The notes under the pieces were generated by a model, which searched no databases, was not told the DNA's origin, and saw only the letters and a program-made list of their open reading frames with translations. From Halegenticoccus soli (GTDB taxonomy: Archaea > Halobacteriota > Halobacteria > Halobacteriales > Haloferacaceae), in the NCBI RefSeq assembly GCF_002844195.1, contig NZ_PEND01000004.1:434001-498000 (forward strand): a DNA stretch of 64,000 nt, in the 5' to 3' direction. The translations under genes and the position numbers were made by a program. Below are positions 9,083 through 47,336 of this stretch, piece after piece (the stretch's first letter is position 1; each line of letters opens with the position of its first letter).

Positions 9083-10056
9083 TGACTGGCGTCGAACCAC
9101 CCGAGGGAACGGGGATGGACGAACCGGCGGGCGACGGGACGGAAGCGACGAAGGCGGGAGCGGAGCGGACGGACGCGGAGACCGAACCGGCGGAATCCGG
9201 GGACGAACAGGCCGGTTCCGAGGTCGAGGTGGCGGCCGCGGCCCGCAACGGCCGCGGGACGACCGCCTGCGAGCTCTGCGGCGAGGACCTCGCCGTCGGC
9301 TACCCGAGCACCGACGAGCCCGTCGTCGAGTGCGAGTCCGTCGTCGTTCCCGCCGGGGAGATCACGGCGCTCGTCGGGCCGAACGGCTCCGGCAAGAGCA
9401 CCCTCCTGCGGGCGCTGTCGAACCAGCTCGAACCCGAGCGCGGGAGCGTCGTCCTCGACGGTCAGGACGTTCAGGGGCTCGGGACGAAAGAGCTCGCCCG
9501 AAAGCTCGGCCTGCTCTCTCAGGAGAACGAGGCACCGGGGAGCCTCACCGTCGAAGACCTCGTCTACCACGGGCGGTACCCGCACCGCGGCTTCTTCGAA
9601 TCCGTCGACGAGGACGACGCCGCCGCGGTCGAGAACGCGCTGAACCTGGCGGGCGTGACGCACCTGCGCGACGCCGACGTGGGGAACCTGAGCGGCGGGC
9701 AGAAGCAGCTCGCGTGGATCGCCATGGTGCTCGCCCAGGAGACCGACGTGCTGCTCCTCGACGAGCCGACGACGTTCCTCGATCTGCACCACCAGCTCCG
9801 CGTCATGGAGGTCGTCCGGACGCTGAAGGAAGAGCGCGACGTGACCGTCGCGGTGGTGCTCCACGACATCGGGCAGGCCGCCCGGTTCGCCGACAACCTC
9901 ATCGCCATGAAGGACGGCGAACTCTACGACTGGGGGCCGCCGCGGAAGGTCGTGACGGAGGAGCTGCTCCGGGACGTGTTCCGCGTCGACGCGAGCGTCG
10001 ACTCCGAGAGCCCCACCGGTCCGCACATCTCGCCGCACCGCGCGATAGATGAGTAG
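9082..10056 (+). CDS. Iron ABC transporter ATP-binding protein (FepC/HmuV-like)
   Basis: ATPase of the FecCD importer, 324 residues. Walker A is GPNGSGKST, the ABC signature is LSGGQKQLA, Walker B is VLLLDEPTTFLDL and the switch His is in VVLHD. An unusual N-terminal extension of about 65 residues, rich in Glu/Ala/Thr/Gly, precedes the ABC domain, which is otherwise of normal length (about 255). It also holds a CELC pair near residues 66-69. The start codon overlaps the permease stop. The extension is likely a disordered acidic halophilic tail; a later in-frame start cannot be excluded. Confidence 0.91.
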   Translation: MTGVEPPEGTGMDEPAGDGTEATKAGAERTDAETEPAESGDEQAGSEVEVAAAARNGRGTTACELCGEDLAVGYPSTDEPVVECESVVVPAGEITALVGPNGSGKSTLLRALSNQLEPERGSVVLDGQDVQGLGTKELARKLGLLSQENEAPGSLTVEDLVYHGRYPHRGFFESVDEDDAAAVENALNLAGVTHLRDADVGNLSGGQKQLAWIAMVLAQETDVLLLDEPTTFLDLHHQLRVMEVVRTLKEERDVTVAVVLHDIGQAARFADNLIAMKDGELYDWGPPRKVVTEELLRDVFRVDASVDSESPTGPHISPHRAIDE

Positions 10057-37865: not shown

Positions 37866-38174
37866 TCAGTCGGTCCGCAGCGCGCGTCCGAGGCCCGCGG
37901 CGGCGGCGAACGTGAGCCCCGTCCCGACGATCCCGGCGAGAAGCGTGCCGAGGTACGGGCCGACGCCGGAGACGGAGTACTCGGGGAACGCGCCGGGGTT
38001 GATCGTCGTCTCAGCGGCCGTCGCGCCGGTCGCCTCCGCCGCGTTGTCGAGCGGTTCCGCGTACCCGACCGCGTCCGCCCCCCAGGCGAACGCGGGCGAG
38101 AGCGCGACGAGTACGAGAACGCCGAGCAGCGCCCTCCGGGACCACCCGCGCCGGGCGAACGAGACGCCGGTCAT
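37866..38174 (-). CDS. PDGLE-domain (CbiN-like) protein partnering CbiM
   Basis: A 102-residue membrane protein with two helices. The first is after the N-terminus (RRALLGVLVLVALSPAFAWGA). The second is at the C-terminus (YLGTLLAGIVGTGLTFAAAAGLGRAL). The intervening extracytoplasmic loop AVGYAEPLDNAAEATGA resembles PDGLE/CbiN accessory subunits of cobalt/nickel ECF transporters. ATG 38174 overlaps the cbiM stop by four bases, so the two are one operon. No CbiQ or CbiO gene follows. Confidence 0.8.
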   Translation of the reverse strand: MTGVSFARRGWSRRALLGVLVLVALSPAFAWGADAVGYAEPLDNAAEATGATAAETTINPGAFPEYSVSGVGPYLGTLLAGIVGTGLTFAAAAGLGRALRTD

Positions 38175-38809
38175 GCGCGGACGCCCTCGACCGCGTCGAC
38201 CCGATCGTCCCCGCCGGCCGTCGAGAGGAAGCGGACGGCGGCCAGCGTGCCCAGCCCCTCGCCGATGCCCAGCAGGAGGTGTCCGCCGGCCATGACGGAC
38301 GCGACGGTCAGGAGTTCGTAGCCGAACGCCGGCGAGAGCCCGAGTTGCAGTCCGGCCGAGAGCGCCGCGGCGGTGACGCCGATCCACCCGGCCGCGACGA
38401 CGGCGAGCGGTTCGCTCCGGTCGGCGAGCGCCCGGTACACCGCGTATCCGACGTACGCCTCGACGACCGCCATGTTCCAGACGTTCGCGCCGAGCGCGAA
38501 CAGCCCCCCGTCCCCGAACGCGAGCGCCTGCACGACGACGACGACCGCGACGCTCAGCGCGCCCAGGTGGGGGCCGAGAACGATCGCCGCGAACGCCCCG
38601 CCGACGAAGTGGGCGCTCGTCCCGCCGGGGATCGGCCAGTTCAGAAGCTGCGCGGCGAACACTCCCGCCGAGACGACGCTGAAGAGGCGGAGGCGCGATT
38701 CGGTCAGCGTCCCGCGCGCTCGTCGGACCGCGAACGCGGCCCACGCCGCAGCGAGTGCGAGGAACAGCGCTGCCATCCACGGGTGCAGGAATCCGTCCGG
38801 TGTGTGCAT
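38171..38809 (-). CDS. cbiM: Cobalt/nickel ECF transporter substrate-binding subunit CbiM
   Basis: Energy-coupling-factor S component for Co2+ or Ni2+, 212 residues. The free N-terminus MHTPDGFLHP is the conserved metal-binding start, in which His2 and the terminal amine coordinate the metal. A second site lies in NWPIPGGTSAHFVGGAF. About six to seven helices are present. A TATA element (GGTAAAACTATC on -, about 38833-38844) sits 27-30 bases upstream. The normal T and A subunits (CbiQ, CbiO) are not adjacent, so this module must use distant partners or act alone. Confidence 0.9.
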   Translation of the reverse strand: MHTPDGFLHPWMAALFLALAAAWAAFAVRRARGTLTESRLRLFSVVSAGVFAAQLLNWPIPGGTSAHFVGGAFAAIVLGPHLGALSVAVVVVVQALAFGDGGLFALGANVWNMAVVEAYVGYAVYRALADRSEPLAVVAAGWIGVTAAALSAGLQLGLSPAFGYELLTVASVMAGGHLLLGIGEGLGTLAAVRFLSTAGGDDRVDAVEGVRA

Positions 38810-39039
38810 GTGCGAACCACGTCTCGCCGTCCCACGATAGTTTTACCGACTCCGTCACTCCGCGCTCCGCCTGAAGGACGCCAGGGGCGACCAAACGCGG
38901 GCGCGACGGGAACCGACTCGGCGAACGACGCCGAGCTCGCTCCGGCCGGATTAACAACACTGATGTTCCTGGTATGAGTGATTACTAAAATAGTAGGGGA
39001 AAATAATAACTTATGTAGGAGCGTTCCATAGCGGACGGC
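38810..39039. promoter_or_regulatory. Divergent control region between cbiM and znuA
   Basis: 230 bases without genes. The cbiM TATA lies at about 38833-38844. The right half (38950-39030) is AT-rich and holds an inverted repeat TACTA-AAA-TAGTA at 38983-38995. An ATAATAACTTATG stretch at about 39003-39015 is the znuA TATA, 27 bases before the ATG at 39040. The palindrome lies just upstream of that TATA and is a candidate site for a metal-responsive regulator. Confidence 0.55.
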
Positions 39040-40162
39040 ATGGAACGAACGCGGAGAGACGCGCTGAAGCTCGGTGCGGGGACGATCGCGGCGGGGCTCG
39101 CCGGCTGTCTGGGATCGAGCGGTGAGATCCCCGGGGGCGGGGGATCCCGCGAAACCCCGGAAGCGCAGGCGTCGTTTTTCGTGCTGTACGACCTCGCCCG
39201 CCACGTGGCGGGCGGCGCGGCGACCGTCGAGAGCATCGTCCCGTTCGGGCAGCACAGCCACGGGTGGGAGCCGCCCGCGGACGTCCAGCGGACGGTGTTC
39301 GAGTCGGACGCGTTCGTTTACATGGGCGAGGGGTTCCAGCCGTGGGCCGACGACGTCGTCGAGAACCTCGAACGCGACGCGCCCGACGTGACCGTCGTCG
39401 AAGCGCGTCGCGGCATCGACCTCATCGAGGTCGCGGGGGAGGGCCACGACCACGGTCACGACCACTCCGGCGCGAGTGACCACGGCGACGAGGGCGGAAA
39501 CGGGACCGACGACAAACACGACGAGCACGGTCACGAAGCGAACGGAGGCGGCGGCGATCACGGTGGTCACGACGATCACGAAGACCACGGCAATCATGGC
39601 GACGAGCACGGCGACGATCACGGCGCTGAGGATCCGCACTTCTGGCTGGACCCGCGGCGGACGAAGCGCGCCGTGGCGAACGTCCGCGACGGATTCGTCG
39701 AGGCGGACGGCGACCGCGAGGAGACGTACGCGGACAACGCGGACGCCTACCGGGAGAAGCTCGACGACCTCGATGCGACCTTCGAGTCGGTGCTGTCGGA
39801 CCGGAGCCGCGACGTGGTGCTCGTCGCCGGGCACAACGCGTTCCAGTACCTCGGCCACCGGTACGGATTCGAGGTGCACGCGCTGACGGGGCTCGCTCCG
39901 GACTCGGAACCGAGCCCGAAGGACGTCAGGATGGCCCAGGGGGTCATCGAGGAACACGGCATCGAGCACGTCCTCGCCCCGGCGCTGGAGTCGGACCGGG
40001 CGGCGAAGCAGCTGGTCGCGGAGACCGACGCGAAGGAGGTACTGCCGATCACGCCGCTCGCCGGGCTGACCGAGGAGTGGCGGCGGAAGGACTGGGGGGT
40101 ATCTGGAGATCATGGGGGAGGTCAACCTCCCGTCGCTCCGGAAGGCGCTGGGGGCGGCGTGA
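39040..40162 (+). CDS. ZnuA-type metal-binding lipoprotein, 3' end shifted by one base
   Basis: Zn2+ (or Mn2+) ABC receptor of the SBP_bac_9 family. The Tat lipoprotein signal is RRDALKLGAGTIAAGLAGC. A ligand His lies in PFGQHSHGWEPP. The large His/Asp/Gly-rich loop at about residues 130-200 (GHDHGHDHSG onward) is the zinc loop. DPHFWLDP and VAGHNAFQYLGHRYG carry further ligands. After EEWRRKDWG the frame breaks at a run of six G (40094-40099). Reading it as five G gives YLEIMGEVNLPSLRKALGAA and a stop at 40160-40162, the normal ZnuA end. As sequenced, translation would run on into the next gene. No ZnuB or ZnuC is adjacent. Confidence 0.85.
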
Positions 40163-41361
40163 CGGCGAACGAGTCCGACTCGGCGGCGGCCGAAGACCCG
40201 CCCGGCGCGAACGCGGGCGACGCGGTCGGAACTGGCACGGCCGAGACCGACGCCGAGACCCTCGACGTGGCGGTGGTCGGCGCGGGCGCGGGGGTCGTCC
40301 TCCGCGACCTCGGGATCGACCGGTTCGCCCTGCTCGAACGCGACGAGGTCGGCGCGTCGTTCCGGCGGTGGCCCGGCGAGATGCGGTTCATCACGCCGTC
40401 GTTCCCGAGCAACAGCTTCGGGGCGCGCGACCTCAACGCGGTCACGCTCGACACCTCGCCTGCGTTCGCGCTCAACCGCGAGCACCCGACGGGCGACGAG
40501 TACGCCGAGTACCTCGAAGCGGTCGTCGAGTTCCGCGACGTGCCCGCGCGGACGGGGATCGACGTGCGCGACGTGGTGCCCGACGGCGACGGGTTCGCGC
40601 TCGAAACCTCCGCGGGGACGATCCGGAGCCGCTTCGTGATCTGGGCCGCGGGCCAGTTCCGGTACCCGAGGCGGTCGCCGTTTCCCGGGGCGGCCGCCTG
40701 CGTCCACAACGTCGATGTCGACTCGTGGCGGGCGTACGCGGACGCCTGCGACGACGAGCGCGCGGTTGTGATCGGCGGGGCCGAGAGCGGAATCGACGCG
40801 GCGCTGGCGCTGTCCGAGCGCGGCCTGCGCGTCGCCGTGATCGACGAGACCGGCCCCTGGCGGCTCCGGTCGCCCGATCCGAGCGAGGTCCTCTCTCCGT
40901 ACACGGCGGAGCGGCTGAACCGGGCGCTCGACGACGGCGCGGCGATCGACCTCGTCGCGGGGAAGCGTGCGACGCGGGTCGAGCGGACGGGGGAGGGGTA
41001 CGCGGTCCACACGGACGACGACGGGCGGTTCGTCACCGGGAATCGCCCCGTTCTGGCGACCGGTTTCGAGGGGAGCGTCGGACTCGTCGAGCGCCTGTTC
41101 GAGATCGAAGGCGGCTACCCGGCGCTCACGGACAGGGACGAGTCGACCGAGACGCGGGGGCTCTTTCTCGTCGGCCCCCACGTCCGTCACGACGGCCAGC
41201 AGTTCTGCTTCATCTACAAGTTCAGACAGCGGTTCGCCGTCGTGGCCGACGCGATCGCGGAACGACTCGGCGTCGACCGATCGCCGCTCTCGGAGTACCG
41301 GGAGAAGGGTATGTTCCTCGACGATCTGTCCTGTTGCGACCCGGAGCTCTGCGACTGCTGA
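40159..41361 (+). CDS. FAD/NAD(P)-binding oxidoreductase with shortened FAD motif
   Basis: A 400-residue flavoprotein of the monooxygenase/TrkA-like FAD family. It starts at GTG 40159, overlapping the restored znuA stop (GTGA). An acidic tail (about 1-35) precedes VAVVGAGAGVVLRDLG. The FAD loop is four to five residues shorter than the usual GxGxxG spacing: the first Gly to the strand-2 acidic residue is about 20 rather than about 24. The second motif VVIGGAESGIDAALAL (NADPH) is intact. The C-terminus is Cys-rich (DDLSCCDPELCDC). Its position between the zinc receptor and a FeoB-like permease suggests a redox role in metal uptake. Confidence 0.78.
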   Translation: MTANESDSAAAEDPPGANAGDAVGTGTAETDAETLDVAVVGAGAGVVLRDLGIDRFALLERDEVGASFRRWPGEMRFITPSFPSNSFGARDLNAVTLDTSPAFALNREHPTGDEYAEYLEAVVEFRDVPARTGIDVRDVVPDGDGFALETSAGTIRSRFVIWAAGQFRYPRRSPFPGAAACVHNVDVDSWRAYADACDDERAVVIGGAESGIDAALALSERGLRVAVIDETGPWRLRSPDPSEVLSPYTAERLNRALDDGAAIDLVAGKRATRVERTGEGYAVHTDDDGRFVTGNRPVLATGFEGSVGLVERLFEIEGGYPALTDRDESTETRGLFLVGPHVRHDGQQFCFIYKFRQRFAVVADAIAERLGVDRSPLSEYREKGMFLDDLSCCDPELCDC

Positions 41362-41363
41362 GC

Positions 41364-43097
41364 ATGGACGGTCGACGCGACGTAGTCGTGATCGGCGAGG
41401 AGGGCGTCGGGAAGTCCTCGCTCGTGGCCTCGCTCGCCGGCGGCGGTCCGACGAGCGGGAACTTCCGGGGAACAACCGTCCGGAGCGAGGCGTACCCTGC
41501 GGGCAAGTACAGGTTCGTCGACACGCCGGGAATCGCGCTCGGGGCCGACACCGCGACGACTCGGGAGGCAGTTCGCCGGCTCGACGGGACGGACCTCGCG
41601 CTCCTCGTCGTTCCGGCAACCGACGTCGACCGCCACCTGCGCGAGCTGCTCCCGCTCGTCGAGGGGAAGACGGGCGCGGTCGTCGTAACCTTCTGGGACA
41701 GGGTCGACGACGGCGCGGACGCCCGCGAGGCGATCGACAGACTGCGCGACGATCTCGGGGTGCCGATCGCGCCGGTCGACGCCCGTTCGGTCGACCGGAT
41801 CGACGGCGGACTCGGCCGCGTCGATGGCGGCGCGGAAGTCGTCGGTGTCGGCCGCGGCCGTCAACGAGACCGCCGCGGCGGTCGAGGAAGCGCCGACCGC
41901 GTCGTCCGCGCCCTCGAACGCGCCGAGCCGTTTCCGGGTCGCGTCGGGGCGCACGTCGGGTGGCGGATCGAACCCCCGGAGACGGCGCTCGAACGCCCGT
42001 ACCTCGGTCCGCCGCTCTGCGCCTCGGTTCTCCTGCTCCCGGCCGTCGCGGCCGTTCTCTTCGCGAACGACGTCGCCGCGGGCCTCGATACGGTAGTCGG
42101 GAACGCGCTCCGACCGGCGGTCGAGAGCGCGTCGGGACTCCCGAATCCGCTGAGCGCGGTGCTGGCCGGCGACTACGGCCTCCTCGCCATGGGGCCGTTC
42201 CTGTTCGTCTGGGCGGGCCCGACGATGCTCGTCTTCGCCGCGTTTATGGGGGCGTACAAGGCGAGCGGGTTGCTCGCGCGGCTCACCGCCGTCCTCGATC
42301 CCTACACCCGTCTCGTCGGTCTGACCGGACACGATCTCGTCCGCGTCGTCACGGGCTTCGGGTGCAACGTGCCCGCGGTCGTCGGCACCCGGAGCTGCTC
42401 GGACTGCACGCGGTGTACGACCGTCTCCGCGATCGCCTTCGGATCGGCGTGCTCTTATCAGTTTCCGGCAACCCTCGCGGTGTTCGCCGCCGTCGGGGAG
42501 CCGTGGCTCGTCGTCCCCTACCTGCTCGTGCTCGCCGTCACGACGCTGATCTACCTCCGGCTGATCGCCCCGGCGGAGGCGCGACGCGCGCCGTCGGCCG
42601 CCGGGAGGCGGGCGTTCCTGACGCGACCGAGCGCCCGGGCGCTCGGCCGCGAAGCGTGGGATTCGATCCGGAGCTTCTTCTGCACCGCGCTCCCCGTCTT
42701 CGCCTGCATCTGCGTCGTCGCGGCGCTCCTCGACTGGATCGGCGCCATCGACGCGCTCGGCGGCGCGCTCGCCCCCGCCGCGGGGGCCTTCGGCCTCCCG
42801 CCGGAGGTGGCGCTCGTCGTCGTGCTGGCGTCCGTCAGAAAGGACGGCATCGCGCTGCTCGCCGCCGACGGCGGCGGCACGCTCGCGGGGGTCTCGCCTC
42901 TCGGCGTGCTCGTCGCCGTCTACCTCGCGGGCACCTTCCTCCCGTGTCTCGTCACGGCGTTCGCCGTGGCGAAGGAGGTGTCGCCGCGGTACGCCGCGAC
43001 GCTCCTGTGCCGTCAGGCGCTCGCGGCGCTCGCCTTCTCGTTCGTCATCGCCCGCGGCGGAGAGGCGCTGTCCGCGGCCGCCGGGGCGGTTCCGTGA
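41364..43097 (+). CDS. FeoB-like GTPase/metal permease with short G domain
   Basis: A 577-residue FeoB-family protein starting two bases after the FAD gene. The G domain has G1 EEGVGKSS, G2 FRGTT and G3 VDTPGI, but no clear NKxD (TFWDRVDD instead). The membrane part has about ten helices with the gate motif GFGCNVPAVVGTRSCSDCTRC, near-diagnostic of FeoB, and FGSACSYQFPATLAVF. It is shorter than classical FeoB, and the helical GDI domain is reduced. Residues about 147-180 are Arg/Gly-rich and better explained in another frame (see findings). It probably transports Fe2+ or Zn2+ with the neighbouring receptor; the metal is not proven. Confidence 0.8.
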   Translation: MDGRRDVVVIGEEGVGKSSLVASLAGGGPTSGNFRGTTVRSEAYPAGKYRFVDTPGIALGADTATTREAVRRLDGTDLALLVVPATDVDRHLRELLPLVEGKTGAVVVTFWDRVDDGADAREAIDRLRDDLGVPIAPVDARSVDRIDGGLGRVDGGAEVVGVGRGRQRDRRGGRGSADRVVRALERAEPFPGRVGAHVGWRIEPPETALERPYLGPPLCASVLLLPAVAAVLFANDVAAGLDTVVGNALRPAVESASGLPNPLSAVLAGDYGLLAMGPFLFVWAGPTMLVFAAFMGAYKASGLLARLTAVLDPYTRLVGLTGHDLVRVVTGFGCNVPAVVGTRSCSDCTRCTTVSAIAFGSACSYQFPATLAVFAAVGEPWLVVPYLLVLAVTTLIYLRLIAPAEARRAPSAAGRRAFLTRPSARALGREAWDSIRSFFCTALPVFACICVVAALLDWIGAIDALGGALAPAAGAFGLPPEVALVVVLASVRKDGIALLAADGGGTLAGVSPLGVLVAVYLAGTFLPCLVTAFAVAKEVSPRYAATLLCRQALAALAFSFVIARGGEALSAAAGAVP

Positions 43098-43160: not shown

Positions 43161-43841
43161 CTACTCGAACAGCCCGGTCGCGTCCCGTTTCGAATCGCGC
43201 TTTTCGGCGTACGCGAGGGTGTAGTAGTCCCTGTCAGCGAGGGCATCGGGGTCGTCGGTGACGACCGTCTCGCCCTGCCGCATGAACAGCCGACGGCCGA
43301 ACGTCACGTCGTAGCCCGCGTCCGCCAGCTTCTCGCCCGTCGCGGGCGCGTCCGTCACTTTGAACAGGAGCATCCGTTCCGGTCCGATCGGGGCCTTGCC
43401 GCCCGCCGCCTCCCGGAGCGTCAGTTCGCTCCCGGCCTCGATTTCGACGCCGAGCGCGGTCGCGAACGCCGTCACGGCGCTGACGCCGGGGACGACTTCC
43501 ACCTCGACGTCCGGGTGGAACGCCGAGAGCGTCCGCCGGAGGTGTCCGAACGTCGAGTACACGTTCGGATCGCCGAGGGTGACGAACGCGACCTCCCCCT
43601 CGCGGGCCTCGGGTGCGACGACCTCGGCCGCCTCCTTCCACGCGCTGCGGAGCTCGTCCGGGTCGCGCGTCATCGGGAAGTCGAGGTCGCCGATCTTCTC
43701 CTCGGGGACGTGTTCGAGCGCCACCGACCGCGACAGCCGACCCGGCGAGTACACCACGTCGGCCGCGCGGAGCACCTCTCGACCGTGCAGCGTGAGCAAG
43801 TCGGCCTCGCCGGGACCGAGTCCGACGCCGTACAGGGTCAT
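43161..43841 (-). CDS. cbiL: Precorrin-2/cobalt-factor II C20-methyltransferase
   Basis: SAM-dependent tetrapyrrole methyltransferase of cobalamin synthesis, 226 residues. It opens with the diagnostic [50 protein letters not shown] and [18 protein letters not shown] form the SAM and substrate loops. FKVTDAP is near the end. It is the last gene of the - strand operon with mog and two cobW genes. The other corrin-ring genes are not in the window. It is convergent with the FeoB-like gene 63 bases away. Confidence 0.92.
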
Positions 43842-43868: not shown

Positions 43869-44474
43869 TCAATCACGCGCTCTCCCCTCCCCGTCCGCGT
43901 CTTCGTGGAGGTGCCTCGTCGCGAGTCCGGCGAGGTGGGGCGCCTCCTCGACGATGATCGCCTCCGTCGCCAGGCGGACCGCGTTCGCGCTGCCCGGGAG
44001 GACGAACACCGGCGCGCCCCGGGCGATTCCCGCGACGGCGCGCGTCGCGACGGCGCGCGTGCCGATCTCGTCGTACGAGAGCCGCCTGAACAGCTCGCCG
44101 AAGCCGGGGAGCGTCCTCTCGAAGAGCCCCGAGACGGCCTCGACGGTCACGTCGTCGGCCGTGACGCCGGTTCCCCCGGTCGTGATGACCGCGTCGACGT
44201 CAGGGCGGGCTATCGCCCGCTGGACGGCCGTCCGGACGCGCGCGTAGTCGTCGGGGACGAGCTTCCGGACGGCCGCCGCGTGGCCGCGCTCGCGCAGGAT
44301 CGCCTCGATGGCGTCCCCGCTCTCGTCCGCGGGACCGTCGTCCGCGCCGTCTCGGCTGCGCGAGGACGAGACGGTGACGACCGCCGCGTAGAGCGGGTCG
44401 ATCACGTCGTGCCCGTGGTCGTCGAGCGAGCGCCGGTCCTCGATCGGGACGGCGGGCGTCGGTCGCTCCGTCAT
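43869..44474 (-). CDS. MoaB/Mog-family molybdopterin biosynthesis protein
   Basis: A 201-residue protein of the MoCF_biosynth family, which adenylylates molybdopterin. The motif [46 protein letters not shown] contains the Gly-rich loop and the catalytic Asp. [15 protein letters not shown] is the C-terminal substrate loop. An N-terminal tail of about 20 residues precedes [16 protein letters not shown] 44474 overlaps the upstream cobW1 stop by four bases, so it is translationally coupled to a metallochaperone GTPase. The cbiL gene follows 27 bases later. Confidence 0.9.
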
Positions 44475-45766
44475 CGGTTCGCGGCCTCCGGCGCGAGTCC
44501 CGAGGAGATCGAAACCAGTTCCTCGGCCGGCGACGCCGGGAACGGATTCTCGAACTGATCCCAGTCGGCGCTCATTTCCTCGTCGGTCAGGAGGCACTCG
44601 TCGAGCGTAGCGACGAGCGCGTCCGCGTCCAGGTCCCGTCCGATGAACACGAGCTTGATCTCGCGGTCGCCCCACGTCTCGTCCCAGTGCACGTCGGGCT
44701 GGGCCCGGCGGTAGGCGTCGCGCTGGCGTTCGGGCAGGCTCGCCACCCAGCGGCCGTTGACGTCGACGCGCACCTGCGCGCCCGCCTGACCCAGGTTCAG
44801 CGCCTGCCGCTCGCGGCCGGCGACCCACACGAGCCCCTTCGAGCGGAGCGGGCCCGTTGGGAAGCCGGACAGCCACTCGACGAACCGCTCCGGGTGGAAG
44901 GGCCGGTGCCGCTCGTACACGAACGAGTCGACGCCGTACTCCTCTGGCGGATGGAGGTGGTCGTGGTCGTGATCGTGACCGTGTTCATATCCGTCGCTGA
45001 GGCCGTGACCCGTGTCCCCCTCCGCGCCGCGTTCCTCGTCGGCCTCGTGCCGTTCGAGCGCCCGCTTCCAGCCGGCCGACTTGCGCGCGATCTCGGCGTC
45101 GAACCGACCCGTGTCGATGATCAGCTCGGGGTCGACCTCCCCGAACGTCGTCCACGCGAGGCGGGCGTTCGGCTGGAGCGACCGCAGGAGCCGCCCGACC
45201 TCCGCCGCGTCCTCGTCCCCGACGAGGTCGCGCTTATTGACGAGGAGTACGTCACAGAACTCCACCTGTTCGACCAGCAGGTCGGACAGCGGGCGCGTCC
45301 CGTCACCGTCGGGACCGACCCGCTCGGGGTCGCGGGAGGCGAACGCCCGGAGGAACCGCGGCGCGTCCACCACCGTCACGGTCGTGTCGAGGCGGTACCG
45401 GTCCGCCGCCGGACCGCGGCCGGCGAACACCTGCGCGATCGGCGCGGGCTCGCCGATTCCGGACGCCTCGACGAGGAGGTAGTCGAACTCGTACTCCCGG
45501 GCGAGCCGGACGACTTCGTTCCGGAGCTCGCCCCGCAGGCCGCAGCAGATGCACCCGTTCGAGAGCGCGGCCACGGCGCTCTCCCCGCCCGAGAGCGTCG
45601 TCCGCCGCTCGACGAGGTCGGCGTCGACGTTCACCTCGCCCATGTCGTTCACCGCGACCGCGACGTCGCGGCCGTCGTCCGCCGAGAGGAGGCGGTTGAG
45701 CGTCGTCGTCTTCCCCACGCCGAGGCTCCCGCTCAGTATCGTCACCGGAATGCGTTCGCCGGTCAT
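44471..45766 (-). CDS. COG0523 (CobW/ZNG1-type) GTPase metallochaperone 1
   Basis: P-loop GTPase of the G3E family, 431 residues. Walker A is SGSLGVGKTTTLNRLL. The signature metal site is SNGCICCGLRGEL (CxCC). VEASGIGEP is switch II-like, and LLVNKRDLV is the base-specificity motif. An insert near residue 265 is His-rich (HGHDHDHDHLHPP), a likely metal buffer. The CobW_C domain follows, with SFVYERHRPFHPERF. Family members deliver Zn2+, Co2+ or Ni2+ to target proteins. It is tandem with a paralogue upstream, overlapping by four bases. Confidence 0.92.
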   Translation of the reverse strand: MTGERIPVTILSGSLGVGKTTTLNRLLSADDGRDVAVAVNDMGEVNVDADLVERRTTLSGGESAVAALSNGCICCGLRGELRNEVVRLAREYEFDYLLVEASGIGEPAPIAQVFAGRGPAADRYRLDTTVTVVDAPRFLRAFASRDPERVGPDGDGTRPLSDLLVEQVEFCDVLLVNKRDLVGDEDAAEVGRLLRSLQPNARLAWTTFGEVDPELIIDTGRFDAEIARKSAGWKRALERHEADEERGAEGDTGHGLSDGYEHGHDHDHDHLHPPEEYGVDSFVYERHRPFHPERFVEWLSGFPTGPLRSKGLVWVAGRERQALNLGQAGAQVRVDVNGRWVASLPERQRDAYRRAQPDVHWDETWGDREIKLVFIGRDLDADALVATLDECLLTDEEMSADWDQFENPFPASPAEELVSISSGLAPEAANR

Positions 45767-47013
45767 AGTTCGATCGAACCCGTCCGGTCGTCCGCGTCCG
45801 CGAGCGCCATCTCCCGCTGACCCTCCGGTGAAAATGGATCGGGGAACGCCCCCCAGTCGGCGTCCATCTCCTCGTCGGTCAGGAGACAGTCGTCGAGCGC
45901 GGACGCGAGCCCCTTTTCGTCCACGTCCCGGCCGATGAACACGAGTTGGACGCCCCTGTCGCCCCACTCGTCGTCCCAGTCCTCCTCGATACCCGGCCGC
46001 GCGGCGAAGTACCGCTTTTGTTCTTCCGGGGGGAGCGTGGCGAGCCAGGTGCCGGCGGGACCCGCTCGGACCGACTGCCCGGCCTTGTCGAGCCCCATGG
46101 CGACGTCCTCGCGGCCCGCCGCCCAGAAGAACCCCTTCGCGCGAATCACGCCGTCCGGCAGGTCGCGGAGGAGGTCGGCGATCCGCTCCGGGTGGAACGG
46201 TCGGTCGCGGTCGTAGACGAAGGAGACGACGCCGTGCTCCGCCGCGGCGTCCTCGTGGTGGTGACCCTCCTGGAGCTCGCGCTTCCAGCCGGCCGACTGG
46301 CTCGCGCGGGCGAAGTCGAACCGCCCCGTGCCGAGGATCTCGTCCGGGTCGACCGCGCCGTGCTCCGCGCGGAGGATCTTCGCGCGCGACTGCAGCGCCC
46401 GGAGGGTCGCCTCGATCGTCTCCAGCTCCTCGTCGGGGACGAGATCGCACTTGTTGAGCACGAGCACGTCGCAGAACTCGATCTGGTCCACGAAAACCTC
46501 CTCCGGGACGCGCGCGTCGTCTGGGGCCACCGCCGCGTCAGTCAGCGCCCGCCCCGAGTCGAATCCGCGCCAGAAGCTGTGAGCGTCGACGACGCTCACC
46601 ATCGTGTCCAGTTCGTAGACGCCGGTCGGGTCGAACTCGGCGTCCTCGAACCCGCGCGCGAACGTCTGTGCGACCGGGATCGGCTCGCTGATGCCCGACG
46701 ACTCGACGAGGAGGTAATCGAAGTCGCGCCGCTCCGCCAGCCGGCCGACTTCGTCGAGCATGTCGCCGCGGAGTCGACAGCAGATGCACCCGTTCGAGAG
46801 CTCGATGATCTCCTCGTCCTCCTGGGAGAGCTCCGACTCGCGCTCGACGAGGTCGGCGTCGACGTTCACCTCGCCCATGTCGTTGACGACGACGGCCGCG
46901 TCGAGCCGACGCTCCGCGTTCAGCACGTGGTTCAGGAGGGTCGTTTTACCGGCTCCGAGAGCGCCGCTCAGGACCGTAACCGGGGTCGGATCGGTGCTGG
47001 ATCGCATGCTCAT
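45763..47013 (-). CDS. COG0523 (CobW/ZNG1-type) GTPase metallochaperone 2
   Basis: Paralogue of the preceding GTPase, 416 residues. Walker A is SGALGAGKTTLLNHVL, the CxCC site is SNGCICCRLRGDM, VESSGISEP corresponds to switch II, and VLNKCDLV binds the base. The His insert is short (QEGHHHEDAAAEHG). CobW_C ends with the same LVFIGRD and CLLTDEEMDADW signature as the sister protein. It is the first gene of the cobW2-cobW1-mog-cbiL operon. The start is ATG 47013 or 47007. A TATA element (TTATTAAATA on -, 47031-47040) lies 27 bases upstream next to the palindrome at 47037-47050. Confidence 0.92.
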   Translation of the reverse strand: MSMRSSTDPTPVTVLSGALGAGKTTLLNHVLNAERRLDAAVVVNDMGEVNVDADLVERESELSQEDEEIIELSNGCICCRLRGDMLDEVGRLAERRDFDYLLVESSGISEPIPVAQTFARGFEDAEFDPTGVYELDTMVSVVDAHSFWRGFDSGRALTDAAVAPDDARVPEEVFVDQIEFCDVLVLNKCDLVPDEELETIEATLRALQSRAKILRAEHGAVDPDEILGTGRFDFARASQSAGWKRELQEGHHHEDAAAEHGVVSFVYDRDRPFHPERIADLLRDLPDGVIRAKGFFWAAGREDVAMGLDKAGQSVRAGPAGTWLATLPPEEQKRYFAARPGIEEDWDDEWGDRGVQLVFIGRDVDEKGLASALDDCLLTDEEMDADWGAFPDPFSPEGQREMALADADDRTGSIEL

Positions 47014-47336
47014 TGTTATAGATGAAGAAATATTTAATAATAATTATTATCCAGTTGGCCCTTCAGGACATTTTTCTGGTGTGATATATGTGATAATCAT
47101 TATTTATCCTTCGAATCGCGCGTCGCCGAGAAATATCGGGAGAAAATCATTTCGGCGCGCCCTCCGAGAGTCGTCCGCCCGAATCGCGGTTGTGATCGAG
47201 GGCCGGCGTCGGGATACCGTGGCGAGGTCGTCGTGAATTTCTCGAACCGGAGATAGTGCCGACGCCGGACATAGTGTCAATTAACCAAGTGTTTTTGGTC
47301 GTGGAGTTCCTTCTCTTCTCCGCGTCGTGTCTAACC
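47014..47336. promoter_or_regulatory. AT-rich divergent control region upstream of the cobW operon
   Basis: 323 bases without genes between cobW2 (-) and the DUF7282 gene (+). 47015-47110 is strikingly AT-rich against a very GC-rich background. It contains a perfect 14-base palindrome ATAATAATTATTAT (47037-47050), overlapping or next to the cobW2 TATA box, and a second inverted repeat ATAAT-C-ATTAT (47093-47103). A and T-rich palindromes of this kind are typical of metal-regulator operators. The right half is ordinary sequence, with a possible TATA near 47285-47300. Confidence 0.55.

Follow-up and report, generated by a model that had tools for sequence, protein, structure and literature searches.

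Results

A znuA, flavoprotein, and FeoB-like gene cluster in Halegenticoccus soli

Within the 64-kb stretch of the Halegenticoccus soli genome analyzed here (the window; G000:C4:434001-498000, from a haloarchaeal genome of 4.6 Mb), three successive plus-strand genes encode a znuA-type metal-binding lipoprotein (39040-40162), a flavoprotein (40159-41361), and a FeoB-like membrane GTPase/permease of 577 amino acids (41364-43097). The initial annotation, made from the letters of the window, had described a His-rich receptor, a flavoprotein ending in a cysteine cluster, and a FeoB gate with a reduced G domain, and all three descriptions hold. By eye, the receptor has a lipoprotein-like start and a His-rich loop, and Pfam places PF01297 (ZnuA, 199 bits) over its residues 44-346. 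The flavoprotein matches PF13738 (Pyr_redox_3, 273 bits) and belongs to the 3D1C/Pyr_redox_3 family, and its C terminus reads SCCDPELCDC. The permease has a short G domain and two Gate repeats, with FeoB_N (PF02421, 42.9 bits) and Gate (PF07670, 51.7 bits) both above the Pfam cut-off.

As assembled, a single open reading frame of 773 amino acids (39040-41361) spans the znuA and flavoprotein genes and contains the domains of both. The assembled znuA departs from its expected frame at a run of six G on the plus strand (40094-40099), where a +1 shift joins it to the flavoprotein frame. In the sister species Halegenticoccus tardaugens, the run has five G, znuA is intact and separate (L004:7702-8853, C terminus LRSLRKALGAE*), and the flavoprotein gene begins two bases after it. 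With the junction at the G run and two separate genes in H. tardaugens, a true znuA-flavoprotein fusion protein is unlikely; the extra G is either a sequencing error or a real mutation. The initial annotation had the three genes abutting one another, and the two-base gap between the flavoprotein stop (41361) and the permease ATG (41364) is indeed there, but the start/stop overlap of znuA and the flavoprotein (GTG 40159/TGA 40160) exists only in the znuA frame without the +1 G. Alignment and comparison with H. tardaugens locate a second lesion in the flavoprotein, a 15-base in-frame deletion (~40277-40299, plus strand) at the GxGxxG fingerprint for binding flavin adenine dinucleotide (FAD); the five missing residues of GAGxAGxG are present in 36 of 42 aligned sequences. 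The permease frame, in contrast, is whole. The ratio of nonsynonymous to synonymous substitution rates (dN/dS) relative to H. tardaugens is ~0.31-0.35 for znuA, the flavoprotein, and the permease, and 0.17 for one control gene.

The conserved unit is the flavoprotein and the FeoB-like permease

A search with the FeoB-like protein gave 52 named loci, of which 39 are haloarchaeal, 12 are thaumarchaeal (Nitrosopumilaceae), and one is from a planctomycete. In 50 of them, the permease has a neighbor from the family of the window flavoprotein, at a distance of less than 300 bases in 23 loci and 0.8-3.4 kb in 27. The two loci without it nearby are L011 and L021, the latter covering only ~930 bases upstream of the permease, including cobW. 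Because many contigs are short, these and all following neighbor counts are lower bounds. The conserved unit is the flavoprotein together with the FeoB-like permease, rather than a trio with znuA.

Most loci have no znuA near the pair. It is within reach in 6 of the 39 haloarchaeal loci (znuB in 4), and in L016, L023, and L025 znuA, znuC, and znuB form one run. Among the loci read, only the two Halegenticoccus genomes have a znuA that immediately precedes the pair and is not accompanied by znuBC. We therefore reject the hand-over of metal from ZnuA to the FeoB-like protein as an ancestral design. This hand-over, from a ZnuA receptor to a GTP-dependent permease, was the centerpiece of the initial annotation, which looked to conservation of the three-gene linkage in other genomes; outside Halegenticoccus, the linkage is not conserved. 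The same annotation had remarked on the lack of ZnuB and ZnuC. Locally this is correct, as no znuB or znuC adjoins the window znuA, but the H. soli genome has two complete znuABC sets elsewhere, on C1 (~507280-510136) and C5 (~415196-417908).

The permease departs from FeoB proper

Against the feoB equivalog model TIGR00437, the window permease scores 110.3 bits, well under the curated cut-off of 315.65. It resembles FeoB in its N-terminal G domain with P loop and DTPG motif, its two Gate repeats, and three common gate cysteines; it differs in being shorter, in having RKD for RR[DE], and in having an extra RSCSxC motif and zinc genes as neighbors. The FeoB_C domain (PF07664) is absent from the window permease and from the three relatives tested, and present in the canonical haloarchaeal FeoB of L169. 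Across 30 permease sequences C334, C345, C348, C363, and C528 are invariant. Canonical FeoB, represented here by two haloarchaeal rows (L169 and L171), shares positions C334, C363, and C528 but does not have the C345/C348 pair, an additional CxxC in the gate. The G4 motif is TxWD instead of NxxD, and its T109, W111, and D112 are likewise invariant in the 30 sequences. For counts of conserved residues over the whole set of loci, some split or broken loci, flavoprotein frames under 340 amino acids, and permease frames under 500 were set aside; alignments A1 and A2 comprise 30 and 26 proteins from these loci, picked by hand.

The AlphaFold model of the permease has a mean predicted local distance difference test (pLDDT) score of 80. 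Its best listed PDB matches in Foldseek are FeoB G domains only; thus, among the matches listed, no solved structure is closely related to the membrane part. In an order-wide sample of 59 genomes, a match above the feoB cut-off occurs in 2, and the H. soli genome is not one of them.

The flavoprotein family aligns with a structure that is solved but unexplained

A profile of the flavoprotein family aligns with the whole length of PDB 3d1c (E 3e-110), and the match takes in the cysteines of the tail; the predicted fold of the H. tardaugens flavoprotein is nearest to 3d1c and then to Bdr/YpdA. C350, C398, and C400 (window numbering) are present in 42 of the 42 sequences used; the CxC of the tail is invariant, and in haloarchaea the tail takes the form CC...CxC. 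3D1C, a putative flavin monooxygenase from S. aureus, is known as a structure only, and its record title names no tested function. It is the closest fold and a full-length match including a C-terminal SCC..CxC, from which the window protein differs in missing part of the FAD fingerprint. Bdr/YpdA, a bacillithiol disulfide reductase, is second closest in both fold and profile, but two flavoprotein relatives score 74 and 79 bits against the cut-off of 339.9 for TIGR04018, and the best matches stop short of the CxC tail. Given the 3d1c and Bdr/YpdA matches and the conserved cysteines, a fair guess would be that the flavoprotein is a disulfide reductase or a thiol-metal handler.

Neighboring ZigA-like GTPases and a candidate operator

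Approximately 1.4 kb downstream of the window permease, on the opposite strand, lies a tandem pair of COG0523 GTPases (first gene 45763-47013, second gene 44471-45745, both minus strand), each with cobW and CobW_C domains. The best family match of both is the NCBIfam family ZigA (NF038288; 433 bits for the first and 363 for the second), although both fall under its cut-off of 600. A passage in PMC2770081 links a subset of COG0523 to zinc. Among the haloarchaeal loci, 28 of 39 have a cobW/COG0523 gene, and in 16 loci the spacing between cobW and feo is 134-206 bases. Genomes have few COG0523 copies (3-5 in 17 examined genomes with the permease, 0-4 in 15 without), so that by our estimate the chance of such a neighborhood within 10 kb is on the order of a few percent.

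Just before the window cobW pair, ATAATAATTATTATTAA (47034-47050) is a candidate operator of the pair; it is the sole match in the window to an inverted-repeat pattern that separates cobW from feo-like genes in other haloarchaea, and is suggestive only. Of 16 Natrialbaceae-type regions, 9 have an ATAATA-N5-TATTAT inverted repeat, or a near form, in the interval from cobW to the permease; eleven loci (238 kb), some of these regions among them, contain 4 near-form matches in total. A single operator common to the whole module was thus only partly found. The initial annotation would have yielded to znuBC genes elsewhere that were co-regulated with its receptor. The genes exist, as described above, although only their presence, and not co-regulation with the receptor, was observed. 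No match to the inverted-repeat pattern was found before znuA in the window, which gives no sign that the trio is co-regulated.

A zinc-ligand-poor ribosomal protein S14 is tied to the module

Ribosomal paralogues that lack zinc-binding cysteines (Cys-minus) are established marks of zinc-starvation regulons in bacteria. In one review table, rpsN2, rpmE2, and rpmG2 appear among Zur-regulated sets. In locus L016, an open reading frame for ribosomal protein S14 (9769-9951) sits between the flavoprotein and the permease, with CRMTGR...CRQSFRE where the canonical protein has CRRCGR...CRQCFRE; the copy in L019 is assigned to PF00253 by Pfam. A Cys-minus S14 occurs in or near the module in 12 of the 52 loci. 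In 12 genomes chosen for a module S14, each has one canonical four-cysteine S14 elsewhere, while the module S14 has two cysteines (one in one genome); an additional Cys-poor S14 occurs in one of the genomes.

To these we can add 391 unchosen genomes of the class, of which 49 have the permease, 50 a second S14, and 30 both (the two-S14 and overlap counts were made by eye from tables). A second S14 is thus present in 30 of 49 genomes with the permease versus 20 of 342 without (Fisher p 4e-19, relatedness not corrected). Among the 17 best second-S14 matches (at least 95 bits), 14 lie less than 100 bases from the permease. In another 20 second-S14 regions, 15 of them from genomes without a permease match and 5 from genomes with the permease elsewhere, every S14 is Cys-poor, and 13 of the 20 have cobW nearby. 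Remnants of the flavoprotein and permease occur in L181, L182, and L185; in the first two (L181:7650-8375 and L182:7681-8406), they surround an intact Cys-minus S14, so that S14 and cobW are kept and the pair is lost.

Two distant S14 paralogues are reported in ~20% of haloarchaeal genomes by a passage in PMC8305020, which makes no zinc link for the second of them (rps14b); the S14 described here is tied to the module and has no zinc ligands. The module's Cys-minus S14 may explain the second haloarchaeal S14 of that study.

Bacterial and plasmid homologues keep similar company

Plasmid records in a database listing include 539 with the flavoprotein and 531 with the permease, most of them from Klebsiella. 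Homologues of both proteins are present in approximately 500 records of plasmids from Klebsiella and 20 from Escherichia, and in many plasmid rows the permease match stands under both feature names (nucleoside-recognition/ferrous iron protein and oxidoreductase). Four bacterial plasmid regions were read. Paenibacillus has COG0523, a Cys-poor rpsN, the flavoprotein, and the FeoB-like gene in a row, with rpmG three genes further. In Acaryochloris, plasmid pREC2 has zigA and Fur-family genes together with the flavoprotein/FeoB-like pair, and pREC1 is the same but with the flavoprotein alone. Paracoccus has aztABCD, a repressor, COG0523, the flavoprotein, and cysS, and no FeoB-like gene is annotated in that stretch. 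On the haloarchaeal plasmid pHG2 of Haloferax gibbonsii, the order is nickel-responsive regulator, cobW, flavoprotein, S14, permease, and hisI, with other genes between; this hisI (L166:12515-12892) is possibly a spare copy of a zinc enzyme.

The genes around the pair are the cast of bacterial Zur regulons (COG0523, znuABC, and Cys-minus ribosomal proteins), with the difference that the module members here are archaeal. According to a passage in PMC2770081, the archaeal genomes known at that time had no recognizable Zur. Within the parts of the open-license PMC literature that we consulted, supplements excluded, we found no description of the flavoprotein and FeoB-like pair in zinc starvation.

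Other neighbors

In the window, a CbiM-type cobalt/nickel uptake gene (38171-38809) is divergent from znuA, and a tetrapyrrole methylase gene (43161-43841) lies near the three genes. In Nitrosopumilaceae, NikR-like genes occur in 4 of 12 loci, znuA in 3, and znuB in 3. All 12 of these loci encode a 280-amino-acid protein beside the FeoB-like gene (e.g., L038:9141-9983) that has no Pfam match and, by eye, ends in a zinc-ribbon-like cysteine pattern in three of the four that were read. Another FAD/NAD(P)-binding protein besides the flavoprotein, with NAD_binding_9 and a weak match to Lys/Orn monooxygenase, is near the module in 27 of 39 haloarchaeal loci (e.g., L016:3628-4920) and could be a metallophore maker. 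An 85-amino-acid protein without a match in Pfam or NCBIfam is found in 18 of 39 haloarchaeal loci (e.g., L008:8038-8295, minus strand), often beside cobW or the Cys-minus S14.

Discussion

The gene set shared by these loci suggests an undescribed route of zinc into the cell. All three marks of a zinc regulon, namely COG0523, znuABC, and Cys-minus ribosomal paralogues, are linked to the family, and of these H. soli itself has only COG0523 and znuA with the pair. On balance, we favor the reading that the H. soli locus is the form that a zinc-starvation module takes in Halegenticoccus, with a FeoB-derived zinc importer and its flavoprotein partner, ZigA-like GTPases, and, in many relatives, a zinc-free S14. 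The zinc half of the uptake unit proposed by the initial annotation is thereby retained, as is cooperation between the flavoprotein and the FeoB-like protein, and linkage supports both well; znuA as its core is not.

We envision the following sequence of events. In response to zinc shortage, the cell would make the FeoB-derived, GTPase-gated membrane protein, which would take zinc through its cysteine-lined gate into the cytosol. The C-terminal CxC of the flavoprotein might then accept the metal, or, alternatively, the flavoprotein might use NAD(P)H to maintain in reduced form the thiols that serve as ligands in the importer and in the receiving proteins. ZigA-like COG0523 GTPases would hand the metal onward and, in many relatives, the zinc-free S14 would substitute for its zinc-binding counterpart in the ribosome. 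The ZnuA of this locus would be an added receptor, more likely one that serves the ZnuBC encoded elsewhere than one that feeds the FeoB-like gate directly. Of these steps, we infer that zinc shortage induces the genes, that the metal carried is zinc and moves inward, and that the flavoprotein acts in either of the two ways. More tentatively, and with somewhat less than even confidence, we extend this proposal to the family as a whole: a FeoB-family, GTPase-gated zinc importer marked by the extra gate CxxC and the TxWD G4 motif, accompanied by an NAD(P)H flavoprotein that accepts zinc or keeps its thiol ligands reduced, would be present in haloarchaea, Nitrosopumilaceae, and several bacterial phyla and, with the zinc-free S14, would constitute an archaeal zinc-sparing response.

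Several observations weigh against this interpretation. The H. soli copy has two lesions, the znuA frame shift and the flavoprotein deletion, and may work poorly or not at all; the dN/dS of the trio is above that of the control gene, and selection may therefore be weaker here. Neither the H. soli genome nor that of its congener G001 has a Cys-minus S14, both having the four-cysteine form only. The shared operator pattern is found in only 9 of the 16 Natrialbaceae-type cobW/feo regions and is missing before znuA in the window, and 7 of the 20 further S14 regions have no cobW in the stretch read. Finally, NikR-like genes, nickel ATP-binding cassette (ABC) genes, and CbiM are near some copies, which keeps nickel or cobalt in contention as cargo.

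The first set of these observations could mean that the H. soli copy is in decay and currently serves no function, an explanation that is compatible with a zinc-starvation module in the relatives and to which we assign a minor but appreciable probability. Consistent with decay, the znuA end is frame-shifted, five FAD-fingerprint residues are lost, and other genomes (L181 and L182) contain remnants of the flavoprotein and permease. However, the permease frame is whole, its dN/dS and that of its neighbors indicate constraint since the split from H. tardaugens, and the single base in the G run may be a sequencing error. Somewhat less probable is a zinc-starvation module whose permease imports Fe, Mn, Co, or Ni, which would replace zinc in cambialistic enzymes. 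The FeoB-related fold and gate would suit such cargo, as would the NikR-like or nickel ABC genes near some copies and the CbiM gene that adjoins the trio in the window, but zinc is the simpler fit to the extra gate CxxC and to the steady company of znuABC, aztABCD, ZigA-like, and Cys-minus S14 genes. It is improbable, in our view, that no metal is imported and that the FeoB-like protein and the flavoprotein form a membrane thiol/disulfide redox system guarding zinc-deprived cysteine proteins: after 3d1c, the nearest characterized flavoprotein folds are bacillithiol disulfide reductases and the CxC tail is invariant, but the Gate repeats and the three common gate cysteines of FeoB are retained, and a redox system would have no need of a GTPase gate. 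Least probable of all is an ordinary ferrous iron FeoB that lies near metal genes by chance, which we reject because, despite the Gate and FeoB_N matches and the FeoB G domains found by Foldseek, the feoB cut-off is not reached, FeoB_C is missing, G4 is altered, and the neighbors are zinc genes.

Current annotation calls proteins of this FeoB-like family iron transporters or nucleoside-recognition proteins; for the flavoprotein it gives oxidoreductase or monooxygenase. Should a FeoB-derived zinc importer with a flavoprotein partner be the correct reading, a whole FeoB subfamily would shift from iron to zinc, archaea would be credited with a zinc-sparing response in which S14 is exchangeable, and 3D1C of S. 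aureus would acquire a context.

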